From Marinigracilibium pacificum (GTDB lineage: Bacteria; Bacteroidota; Bacteroidia; Cytophagales; Cyclobacteriaceae), in NCBI RefSeq assembly GCF_012926615.1, contig NZ_JABBNU010000003.1, positions 248,001 through 312,000 on the forward strand: a stretch of 64,000 nucleotides of DNA, in the 5' to 3' direction. The translations under genes were made by a program, and so were the position numbers. Shown here piece by piece: positions 58,430-62,629 of the stretch. Below the pieces are notes generated by a model. That model did no database searches. It was not told the origin of the DNA and saw only the letters and a list, made by a program, of their open reading frames with translations. Numbering within the stretch: position 1 is the first letter of the stretch; every line of letters begins with the position of its first letter.

Positions 58430-60325
58430 ATGACACCTCCAGTGAAGAATTTTGTAATCGATTTTGACAGTACATTTACAAAAGTAGAAGGGCTGGACCT
58501 TCTTGTTGAAATGGCTCTTAATAATCACGCTGATAAGCATTCTGTTGTTAAGGAAGTAAAAGAGATTACTGATAAAGGAATGAGCGGGGAACTAGGCTTT
58601 GAAGATTCATTGAAGAAGAGAATAGCTCTCCTAAAAGCAAATAAAAGTGATGTCAATAAGCTTTCTGAAAGACTAAAAACTGAGGTTTCGAGTAGTTTTA
58701 AGAGAAATAGAGACTTTTTTAAAGAATACTCTGAAAATATTTATATCGTTAGTAGTGGGTTTAAGGATTTTATCCTTCCGGTAGTTGAAGAAATGGGTGT
58801 TAAGCCTGAAAATGTTTATGCCAATGAATTCCGCTATGATGAGGAAAATAATATAATCGGGTTTGATGAATCTAATGTTTTGGCAAAAGACAATGGAAAA
58901 GTCACCTTATTAAAAAACCTCAAACTACAAGGAGACATTTATGTTATTGGAGATGGTTATACAGATTATGAAATAAAAGCATCTGGATTAGCAAACAAGT
59001 TTTATGCTTTCACCGAAAATGTAAGTCGTGGCAATGTGCTCGATAAGGCAGACCACATTGCTCCTAGTCTAGATGAAATCCTATATTTAAATAAGATGAA
59101 CACAGCAATTAGTTACCCGAAAAACAGGATTAACGTTTTACTATTAGAAAATATCCATCAAGATGCCGTAAATGGCATGATAGAAGAAGGATATAACGTT
59201 GAAGTCTACCCGGCAGGACTGGATGAAGATGAATTATGTGAAAAGATTAAAAATGTATCCATTCTTGGAATCAGATCTAAAACTCAGGTAACTAAAAAGG
59301 TTCTGGAACATGCTAATCGATTAATTGCTGTCGGAGCATTCTGCATTGGGACAAACCAGATAGATCTTGAAGCATGTCTTGAAAAAGGCGTGGCAGTATT
59401 CAATGCCCCATATAGTAATACCAGATCTGTGGTTGAACTTGCACTGGGAGAAATTATCCTGTTAATGCGAAATATTCCAGATAAAAATATTGCTATGCAC
59501 AATGGCGAGTGGAATAAATCAGCAACAGGGAGTGTTGAAATCAGGGGCAAAAAATTAGGTATAATCGGATATGGTAACATCGGAGCTCAATTATCAATTT
59601 TGGCTGAAGGGGCTGGAATGGATGTTCACTACTATGACATTGAAGAAAAACTGGCTCTTGGAAATGCTACAAAATGCAATTCCCTGGAAGAATTACTTTC
59701 TATTTCAGATGTGATTTCTCTTCATGTCGATGGAAGACCTGAAAACACCAATATCATAGGTGAAAAAGAATTTAGCATGATGAAGAAAGGTGTTGTATTC
59801 CTAAATCTAAGTCGTGGTCAGGTTGTTGACATTAAGGCTTTGGCAGATAATATAAGGTCAGGAAAAATTAGAGGTGCTGGCGTTGATGTATTTCCTGAAG
59901 AACCTAAAGGAAATGATGATCCGTTTGTTTCTGAATTACTTGGGTTACCTAACCTGATATTAACTCCCCACATTGGAGGAAGTACATTGGAAGCACAAAA
60001 AAACATAGCAGACTTTGTACCTGGGAAAATCATACAATACATCAATACCGGAAGCACAACAAACAGTGTTAATTTCCCTAATCTACAATTACCAACATTA
60101 GAAAATGCACACAGACTTATTCATATTCATATAAATAAGCCGGGGATAATGGCTAAAATGAATAACGTATTGCTAGAGCATGACATAAACATCATGGGTC
60201 AGTACCTGAAAACCAACGAAAAAATCGGTTATGTAATTACTGATATCGACAAACAATATGACAAGGAAGTAATTAGTGCATTAAAAGCTATTGACGGGAC
60301 AGTCAAATTCAGAGTATTATATTAA
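58430..60325 (+). CDS. serA: Fused phosphoserine phosphatase / D-3-phosphoglycerate dehydrogenase
   Basis: This 631-aa protein joins two enzymes of serine synthesis. Residues 1-225 are a HAD-IB phosphatase: NFVIDFDSTFTKVEG (nucleophile Asp), IVSSGFKDFI and VIGDGYTDYEIK (Mg site). Residues about 230-540 are a SerA dehydrogenase: VGAFCIGTNQIDL, KLGIIGYGNIGAQLS (NAD binding), LNLSRGQVVD (Arg), VFPEEP (Glu) and TPHIGGST (His). Residues about 555-631 form an ACT domain (RLIHIHINKPGIMAKM), the usual serine sensor. The fusion provides steps one and three of the pathway; the aminotransferase for step two is downstream. The fusion occurs without a frameshift or linker of unusual composition. Confidence 0.93.
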   Translation: MTPPVKNFVIDFDSTFTKVEGLDLLVEMALNNHADKHSVVKEVKEITDKGMSGELGFEDSLKKRIALLKANKSDVNKLSERLKTEVSSSFKRNRDFFKEYSENIYIVSSGFKDFILPVVEEMGVKPENVYANEFRYDEENNIIGFDESNVLAKDNGKVTLLKNLKLQGDIYVIGDGYTDYEIKASGLANKFYAFTENVSRGNVLDKADHIAPSLDEILYLNKMNTAISYPKNRINVLLLENIHQDAVNGMIEEGYNVEVYPAGLDEDELCEKIKNVSILGIRSKTQVTKKVLEHANRLIAVGAFCIGTNQIDLEACLEKGVAVFNAPYSNTRSVVELALGEIILLMRNIPDKNIAMHNGEWNKSATGSVEIRGKKLGIIGYGNIGAQLSILAEGAGMDVHYYDIEEKLALGNATKCNSLEELLSISDVISLHVDGRPENTNIIGEKEFSMMKKGVVFLNLSRGQVVDIKALADNIRSGKIRGAGVDVFPEEPKGNDDPFVSELLGLPNLILTPHIGGSTLEAQKNIADFVPGKIIQYINTGSTTNSVNFPNLQLPTLENAHRLIHIHINKPGIMAKMNNVLLEHDINIMGQYLKTNEKIGYVITDIDKQYDKEVISALKAIDGTVKFRVLY

Positions 60326-60514
60326 AAAAGACATCGGGGATAGTTGCAGACCTTGCTAAATTAGCAGGATTTGGGCTATCCCTTTCCGGTCAACCATCCA
60401 CTGTTAACTCCTGTAAAAACAGAAGACCTACAAGTAGGTTGAGGCCCGGTTTCGCGGCAGGATTCACCCGGTATTGTTAATAATGTTCAAAGTCGCAAAA
60501 CGTCCCGATGCCTT
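60324..60514 (-). ncRNA. Structured small RNA of about 190 nt, 6S RNA-like candidate
   Basis: On the minus strand a transcript predicted from promoter and T-tract would begin near 60514 and end at 60324. Its ends pair (GGCATCGGG / CCCGATGTC), and the stem may extend through GTT..GCGAC with GTCTGCAAC. A large open central region follows, with a small hairpin on the 3' side (CCTGCT / AGCAAGG), then a terminal stem (CCGGgccTCAACC / GGTTGACCGG) around 45 nt. Closing stem, central bubble, 3'-side hairpin and terminal loop are the plan of 6S RNA. The region is richer in GC than its surroundings and lies between serA and serC. A 6S identity is inference; a different structured RNA is possible. Confidence 0.6.
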
Positions 60515-60518
60515 AATG

Positions 60519-60547
60519 CAAAGTTAGGAAAGAAAATTATTACCAGC
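60519..60547 (-). promoter_or_regulatory. Promoter for the minus-strand small RNA
   Basis: On the minus strand TAACTTTG (complement of 60519-60526) is a perfect -7 element. TATG, one base off TTTG, lies 20 nt further upstream. The predicted start, about 5 nt beyond, coincides with the first base pairs of the RNA closing stem. Confidence 0.6.
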
Positions 60548-60599
60548 ATAATTTGAACCTTTCAATTTATTTTCGACTTTTGCACAAAATTTGAACTTT

Positions 60600-61693: not shown

Positions 61694-62629
61694 ATGTATA
61701 AAATTAAAAAAGTATTAGTAGGATTAGATCTATCAAAACTTGATGATACACTCATCGATTATTCAAATTATTTTGCAAAACTGAATGATGCAACTGATTT
61801 GAAATTCATAAAAATTACTCCTGAAATTGCTATACCAGCTGAGATTAAAAAGGAATTTCCTGATATGGTAAAAAGAGCAATCACTGATAAAAAAAATCAA
61901 ATGAAAGAAGTGATTGTTAATAAAATAGGAGTAAAACCTCCATATAAAGTTTCTTATGAAGTTGTAAAGGGTCAAAAAGCTAAAAGACTTCTAAAATATT
62001 CTCATTCCAGCGATATTGACTTAATCATAGTTGGCAGAAAAAGAAAGAAAGAAGGCTCTGGAGTTCTGGTCAACAGACTTGCAAGAAGAGCTGATTGCAG
62101 CCTATTGATAATACCTGAAGGATCAAAAGCTCAAATCAATAAACTTCACGTACCCATTGATTTTTCAAAAAATGCTAAGGATGCACTTGAAGAAGGGATT
62201 CAAATAGCATCAATGATTAAAAATCATGAAGGTAGAGACGTTGAAATAATATGCCAGAATGTTTATAATGTTCCTGTTGGATATCATTATAGTGGAAGGT
62301 CATATGAAGAATTTTCTCAGATAATGAGAGAAAATGCAAAAAAGAACTTTGCTACCTTCATCAAAAAAATAGATACAAAAGGCACTAATATTCGTGCTAT
62401 TTATTCATTGGACACCAATGAGAATCCAATAGAAGATATTTACAATCTTGCAAAAGGAATTCAAGCAGACCTTGTCTTGTTTGGAGCCAAAGGAAGAACA
62501 GCTTTACCATCACTTTTTATAGGAAGTATGGCTGAAAGATTAATCCAGTTTCTTAAAGATATACCAGTTATGGTTGTTAGAAGAAAAGGTACTAATGCAG
62601 GAATTCTAGAATCATTAAGAGAATTTTAA
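61694..62629 (+). CDS. Universal stress protein with two Usp domains
   Basis: This 311-aa protein contains domain 1 (about 1-147, KKVLVGLDLSKLDDTLIDY, ending in CSLLIIPEG) and domain 2 (about 150-300), the latter with the ATP motif LFGAKGRTALPSLFIGSMAE and ending in IPVMVVRRKG. The second half keeps GxxG(9)GS; the first half does not, so only one site probably binds ATP. It starts 14 bp after the aminotransferase and may share its transcript. Confidence 0.9.
   Translation: MYKIKKVLVGLDLSKLDDTLIDYSNYFAKLNDATDLKFIKITPEIAIPAEIKKEFPDMVKRAITDKKNQMKEVIVNKIGVKPPYKVSYEVVKGQKAKRLLKYSHSSDIDLIIVGRKRKKEGSGVLVNRLARRADCSLLIIPEGSKAQINKLHVPIDFSKNAKDALEEGIQIASMIKNHEGRDVEIICQNVYNVPVGYHYSGRSYEEFSQIMRENAKKNFATFIKKIDTKGTNIRAIYSLDTNENPIEDIYNLAKGIQADLVLFGAKGRTALPSLFIGSMAERLIQFLKDIPVMVVRRKGTNAGILESLREF

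Follow-up and report, generated by a model that had tools for sequence, protein, structure and literature searches.

A conserved structured RNA between serA and serC of Marinigracilibium pacificum, very probably its 6S RNA

The locus and its RNA gene

In this study, we examined a window of 64,000 nucleotides (nt) from Marinigracilibium pacificum (Bacteroidota, Cytophagales; contig NZ_JABBNU010000003.1, positions 248,001 to 312,000 of the forward strand) and, within it, the spacer that separates serA from serC. The minus strand of this spacer encodes, from 60512 to 60324, a genuine structured RNA some 190 nt long. The RNA abuts serA, 3′ end to 3′ end, and, judged from its sequence and that of its relatives, is very probably the 6S RNA of this bacterium. 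6S RNA exerts global control of transcription, acting as a decoy that imitates an opened promoter. The architecture of this class, a length of roughly 190-200 nt, paired ends, a large central bubble and an apical arm, is found in the window RNA (Table 1).

Table 1 Features of the RNA gene and of the candidate serC promoter, in window positions
Feature	Positions	Strand	Detail
6S-type RNA gene	60324..60512	-	from closing stem to last base of the U run; real start possibly 60512-60514
-7 promoter box TAACTTTG, consensus TAnnTTTG	60519..60526	-	read from sequence
Closing stem, 5′ strand GGCATCGGG	60504..60512	-	9 pairs with 60330-60338
Closing stem, 3′ strand CCCGATGTC	60330..60338	-	pairs with 60504-60512
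U6 run directly 3′ of closing stem, putative terminator	60324..60329	-	read from sequence
Helix 2 (downstream duplex), 5′ strand UUGCGACUUUG	60488..60498	-	96.6% of cells paired; 7/8 pairs changed on both sides
Helix 2, 3′ strand CAAGGUCUGCAA	60344..60355	-	partner of 60488-60498
Central bubble, 5′ strand with conserved AACA	60470..60487	-	alignment column counts
Central bubble, 3′ strand	60356..60372	-	contains AAAUCCUG at 60372-60365
Candidate -7-like element AAAUCCUG	60365..60372	-	bubble 3′ side
Helix 3, 5′ strand GGGU	60466..60469	-	pairs with 60373-60376; 99.3% of cells paired
Helix 3, 3′ strand GCCC	60373..60376	-	partner of 60466-60469
Helix 4, 5′ strand UCCU	60459..60462	-	pairs with 60379-60382; 4/4 pairs changed on both sides; 78.6% of cells paired
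Helix 5, AACC	60448..60451	-	pairs with 60392-60395 (GGUU); 4/4 pairs changed on both sides; 94.6% of cells paired
Candidate -33-like element UUG	60391..60393	-	18 nt before AAAUCCUG
Tip core, 5′ strand GGCCUCA	60440..60446	-	each column 36 or 38 of 38
Tip hairpin 1, ACCUAC/GUAGGU	60426..60439	-	5/5 counted pairs changed on both sides
Tip hairpin 2, CUUCUG/CAGGAG	60408..60425	-	5/6 counted pairs changed on both sides; 78.1% of cells paired
Tip core, 3′ strand GUUAACAGUGGA	60397..60408	-	UAACAGUGGA 36 to 38 of 38 per column; preceding U 23/38
Candidate serC TTTG	60552..60555	+	N19 before GACTTTTG; by eye
Candidate serC -7 box GACTTTTG	60575..60582	+	by eye

Folding of the 186-nt transcript 60512-60327 yields -61.4 kcal/mol, compared with -48.3 kcal/mol (standard deviation 4.0) in 200 dinucleotide shuffles (z -3.28), none of which folded equally well. 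Across 37 loci, the closing stem formed by the RNA's own flanks has a mean energy of -24.2 kcal/mol, compared with -14.9 kcal/mol for swapped flanks; in every locus the matching flank ranks within the top six of the 37 candidates, and in 15 it comes first. A U-rich stretch follows the stem in many, not all, of these loci.

The promoter box, both strands of the closing stem and the T6 run are located exactly where a preliminary description of the stretch had placed them, as are its inner motifs, GTTTTGCGAC and GCCGCGAAAC among them. According to passages of PMC9723704, the sigma-A box of the phylum, TAnnTTTG, occupies -12 to -5; with this spacing, TAACTTTG would place +1 near 60514. Taken alone the box is no evidence, since TAnnTTTG occurs 82 times in the window against 90.8 expected, a count not above chance. 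What lends it weight is its recurrence: 15 of 38 loci from the same GTDB family have an exact box 15-50 nt upstream of the RNA core, and 23 do not. The chance-level frequency of the box is also what could be said for a chance fold or a terminator remnant in the intergenic spacer, a reading that we find scarcely credible in view of the folding z-score, the conservation in 109 of 118 family genomes and the covariation described below.

Distribution, fold and genomic context

Of 59 genomes searched at the nucleotide level with the 251-nt region, 10 contained a match, the own genome among them. From ten family RNAs (nine distinct, the window RNA included) we built a covariance model of 149 positions, R1, which has a single match in the M. 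pacificum genome (expectation value (E) 5.3e-32, with the window RNA among the training sequences) and one copy per genome in 109 of the 118 sampled genomes of the family, a match being missing in nine. None of the 118 reaches the gathering cut-off of either RF01685 (6S-Flavo) or RF01693 (Bacteroidales-1), each of which attains E 0.001 in two genomes. Standard models thus miss the 6S RNA of this family. Where more than 40 genomes were searched, filters were stricter and few candidates were scored per genome, so that our phylum and order counts are lower bounds. In the phylum sample, R1 matched at least 31 of 247 genomes (E 0.001), RF01685 at least 30 (12 above its cut-off), RF01693 at least five (two above its cut-off) and a broader model, R2, at least 58 (E 0.001); in the order sample, R1 matched at least 30 of 194 (E 0.01) and R2 at least 32 (E 0.001). 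The training set of R2 included 27 of the 30 RF01685 loci and both Bacteroidales-1 loci, so that finding them again with R2 is no test; 19 of its phylum matches lie outside the window's class, many of them weak (E 1e-6 to 1e-3).

We wrote the consensus structure from a ten-sequence MAFFT alignment; it comprises helix 2, the bubble, helices 3-5, the tip core and two tip hairpins. Two-sided changes occur there in 16 of 34 pairs, and 89.3% of cells are paired, compared with 80.1% after shuffling. The family alignment (A4) contains 38 loci (37 distinct), namely the ten from the nucleotide search, 22 new ones drawn from the best 30 of the 109 R1 family matches and six from the phylum search. Here, 27 of 34 pairs carry compensatory changes, and the share of paired cells is 91.6%, whereas shuffling gives 76.9% and sliding of the partners no more than 52.2%; one pair of helix 3 changes from AU to GC in 9 of 37 sequences. 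In the phylum alignment (A5), which holds 82 of 127 loci (without re-fetched places, L003, L033, L036, L040 and L106-L114), all 34 pairs covary, with 90.5% of cells paired against 68.9% shuffled and 49.0% slid, and with the tip-hairpin columns gapped in 26 to 32 of the 82 sequences. Because both of these larger alignments were fitted to the model, their statistics favour the structure.

The structured minus-strand RNA that the preliminary description proposed is therefore borne out by its fold, its covariation and its spread through the family; a lack of conservation and covariation, which had been named as the outcome speaking against it, was looked for, and both were found. The internal pairings given there were in part different. 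The helix CCGG..TCAACC/GGTTGACCGG lacks conservation: 66.7% of its cells are paired, compared with 65.0% after shuffling, and 80 of 500 shuffles attain its covariation score. CCTGCT/AGCAAGG is partly backed in the ten sequences (85.4% of cells paired; 1 of 500 shuffles attains its score), but some of its bases also belong to the conserved helix 2. Conserved elements that had been overlooked are helix 2 (GACUUUG/CAAGGUC), helix 3 (GGGU/GCCC) and the pair of hairpins at the tip.

The two-hairpin fork at the tip is present in the RF01693 consensus too, a feature that the window RNA shares, and in R1 matches from outside the window's class, one in each of two genomes (L083 and L095). These loci, from two families, keep GGCCUCA and CAGUGGA and have a diverged bubble motif, which suggests that the tip is the older signature. 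On the simplest reading, the fork would be old and later reduced in the 6S-Flavo group.

With about 1.5 kb covered on each side, serA was matched in at least 16 of the 38 family loci, serC in at least 17 and both in at least 13; serA, serC or a universal stress protein gene (usp) lies near the RNA in at least 24, and none of the three was matched in 14, from which we take the RNA to be independent of the serA-serC site. This bears on the earlier suggestion that the RNA lies antisense in the leader of serC. A cis-acting antisense regulator of serA-serC expression would fit an RNA encoded on the opposite strand between two genes that adjoin it repeatedly. Against this, the structure is kept at the 14 loci (about 3 kb each) where none of these genes was matched, and the compensatory changes preserve the fold and not complementarity to a target. 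The candidate serC promoter at 60552-60582, whose TTTG-N19-GACTTTTG spacing is the same in two congeners when compared by eye, lies past the RNA gene, so that the serC leader would exclude the RNA, which is probably outside it. On the grounds of the 14 loci and of this promoter we rejected antisense control of serC as the main function, and we regard cis-antisense regulation of the two genes as very improbable.

Serine-pathway genes surround the RNA gene. The product of serA (58430-60325, plus strand; 631 amino acids) has a HAD domain at residues 9-180, followed by 2-hydroxyacid dehydrogenase and ACT domains, and looks like a SerB-SerA fusion, the HAD domain being the putative SerB part; serC is next door. 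A universal stress protein gene (61694-62629, plus strand) adjoins serC, and such a gene neighbours the RNA in L062, L068, L077, L079 and L080 with no serC match nearby.

Identity and proposed function

At gathering thresholds, Rfam reports only one tRNA in the 64-kb window, and the RNA is not recognised. Several observations weigh against its identification as 6S RNA. In a permissive search of 2 kb, the RF01685 match on the RNA's strand scores 23 bits where the cut-off is 85 (E 2.9, not significant alone), a snoRNA model elsewhere in the same 2 kb had a lower E (0.92), and RF01693 (cut-off 60 bits) was not reported for the RNA at E 5. When ten 3-kb loci were searched jointly at E 10, six, the window's own included, were without a 6S-type model. 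RF00013 was unmatched in the own genome and in the ten 3-kb loci; the control for this search gave matches in 5 of 14 genomes. Of the 30 phylum genomes with an RF01685 match, R1 picked up only 20 under the strict filters, although it matched all 30 loci once these were supplied. The 6S rod in passages of PMC8876501 is capped by a loop and has no forked tip, and those of PMC7366714 do not equate the Bacteroides 6S RNA with RF01693. The weak scores agree with the expectation, voiced in the preliminary description, that an RNA of this type is hard to find by similarity.

In the other four loci of the joint search, 6S-type models were reported: RF01685 scored 41.4, 37.0 and 32.2 bits in L004, L008 and L005, and RF01693 scored 34.4 bits in L010, the best of the ten relatives, and 27.8 bits in L004, reaching E 2.7e-4 in a short stretch of L010. 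More telling is R1, which was trained on the family only and matches all 30 of the 6S-Flavo loci supplied, at the same places (29 at E 2.8e-6 or better; L040 weakest, E 0.0015), with one further chance match (E 0.36). It likewise matches both of the above-cut-off Bacteroidales-1 loci at the same coordinates. RF01685 and RF01693 themselves coincide at one place in three genomes (G070, G152 and G111; L073-L075), and for this reason the two should probably share an Rfam clan. Since R1 matches both and the Rfam models overlap, we conclude that 6S-Flavo, Bacteroidales-1 and the window RNA are homologous; and since the window RNA lies below the cut-offs of RF01685 and RF01693 and is unmatched by RF00013, we file it as a Bacteroidota 6S-type RNA under no single Rfam entry.

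This is in line with published descriptions. Passages of Weinberg et al. 2010 (PMC2864571) class 6S-Flavo with RNAs that share the function of a validated class, and the Rfam text for RF01693 records that a 6S-Bacteroidales RNA was suggested. In the passages concerned, differential RNA sequencing (dRNA-seq) is reported to have shown a 6S RNA of Bacteroides thetaiotaomicron together with product RNAs (pRNAs) of two classes (PMC7366714), and PMC9723704 records that a 6S RNA was detected in Flavobacterium psychrophilum. A trans-acting structured RNA from some other class, alike only in its rod with a bubble and not binding RNA polymerase, would account for the sub-threshold Rfam scores and for a near-invariant forked tip core that differs from the rod in passages of PMC8876501. 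Such an RNA is improbable in our judgement, because the family-only R1 matches the 6S-Flavo and Bacteroidales-1 loci at the same coordinates, and the Bacteroidales-1 model itself has a forked tip. The same matches uphold the assignment to 6S RNA of the 6S-Flavo type made in the preliminary description.

The primary sigma factor and the promoters of Bacteroidota differ from those of model bacteria. On the bubble 3′ side of the window RNA lies AAAUCCUG, whose box columns hardly vary among the 38 family loci (A, A, A, C and U in all, G in 37). UUG precedes the box by 16-18 nt in 37 of 38 family sequences and in 24 of the 30 non-family sequences that have the box (31 were given, of which L025 has none; L040 had been excluded beforehand); among those 30, UUG is missing from six, namely L030, the f24 loci L037-L039 and the two loci of Bacteroidales-1. 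For likeness to TAnnTTTG, AAAnCYUG scores 3.42 of 6, and since this is only third best of 141 family columns, two tip-core columns scoring higher, likeness alone is no proof of a -7 copy. Passages of PMC7366714 place TTTG near -33 in Bacteroidota promoters. At 84 non-coding TAnnTTTG sites from the window and 44 loci, for which counts are small, TTTG precedes the box four times at gap 18 and five times at gap 19, compared with about 0.5 each at coding sites; it also does so four times at gap 33 and five times at gap 35, an equal-sized peak, so that the one at 18-19 is not unique. In model bacteria, 6S RNA has a -10-like element on the bubble 3′ side and a -35-like element in the apical arm (passages of PMC8876501). 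Together, AAAUCCUG and UUG are suggestive of a lineage-specific promoter mimic.

By homology, polymerase binding, product RNA and growth-phase behaviour may be expected of the window RNA as well. An own sigma-A-type promoter would drive its transcription, which the closing stem and U run would end, and the RNA would fold into a rod whose central bubble resembles an opened promoter. RNA polymerase holoenzyme would bind it instead of DNA and be held back; on the return of nutrients, the polymerase would transcribe the 5′ bubble strand and helix 2 into a short product RNA, which would open helix 2 and free the enzyme. Passages of PMC8876501 describe this template, bubble 5′ side plus helix 2, for model bacteria, and the 5′ strand of helix 2 is by the same reasoning the putative pRNA template here. 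With the box placed at -12 to -5, synthesis of the product RNA would begin close to the conserved AACA, most simply opposite C60485, and its predicted first bases are 5′-GUUCAAAGUCGC (5′-GUUCAAAG).

The 3′ side of the bubble can also pair with the 3′ strand of helix 2, an arrangement that a release hairpin of 6S RNA, as in passages of PMC8876501, would fit. At least four pairs form in all 35 distinct segments (mean z -1.0; below -1 in 19 of 35), and over the 38 family loci the energy is -3.75 kcal/mol, compared with -1.55 kcal/mol when the bubble strand is shuffled, the own mean being matched by 11% of shuffles. Covariation of this pairing is not above controls, its score being reached by 64 of 500 and 452 of 500 shuffles in two registers, and the low-energy pairing is not seen in Bacteroidales-1. 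Within the genus, the bubble 3′ side can form a hairpin, CCUGCUAAUUUAGCAAGG (60351-60368, minus strand), that overlaps helix 2; this could be the release hairpin.

A wider proposal, which we hold to be conceivable but doubtful, joins three parts: that Bacteroidota 6S RNA mimics the phylum's own promoter (UUG-N16-18-AAAnCYUG for TTTG-N18/19-TAnnTTTG), that its tip docks the primary sigma factor or another protein, and that it forms one phylum-wide family. If true, the mimicry in UUG-N16-18-AAAnCYUG would sit on the strand playing the non-template role, the forked tip GGCCUCA/UAACAGUGGA would be a phylum-specific docking site in a phylum whose primary sigma factor is unusual, and one largely unannotated family would replace 6S-Flavo and Bacteroidales-1.

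The kind of RNA is known; as far as the literature was searched, the annotation gap, the bridge between Rfam entries and the conserved forked tip are new. No paper in that literature brings 6S RNA and Cytophagales together. Wehner et al. 2014, which lies outside it, may overlap, and Cytophagales 6S RNAs may be listed there. The only paper found with 6S RNA, Bacteroidetes and a Cytophag- word was PMC9723704. The family of the window RNA bridges two separate Rfam entries as one homologous RNA and supplies a seed alignment with strong covariation, and its conserved forked tip and possible lineage-specific promoter mimic are testable in Bacteroidota.

Comparison with known 6S RNAs

With 6S-Flavo (RF01685), the window RNA has in common helix 2, helix 3, an AAAnCYUG-like motif on the bubble 3′ side and a UUG, which in 6S-Flavo mostly lies 16 nt upstream of the box. 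The two differ at the tip, where the 6S-Flavo model, of 108 positions, has one short hairpin: 39 nt of the window RNA stand against five model positions. Bacteroidales-1 (RF01693) resembles the window RNA at the tip, where two hairpins fork from a GGCC.CA/CAGUGGA core, and likewise in helix 2 and AAAUCuUGU on the bubble 3′ side, whereas UUAC follows the tip core, in both loci viewed, where the family has UUG. The 6S RNAs of RF00013 (Escherichia coli ssrS, Bacillus subtilis 6S-1) have the same length, paired ends, central bubble and apical arm, and a -10-like element is expected on their bubble 3′ side (passages of PMC8876501). In contrast to these, the window RNA is unmatched by the RF00013 model and has a tip that is forked and conserved in sequence.

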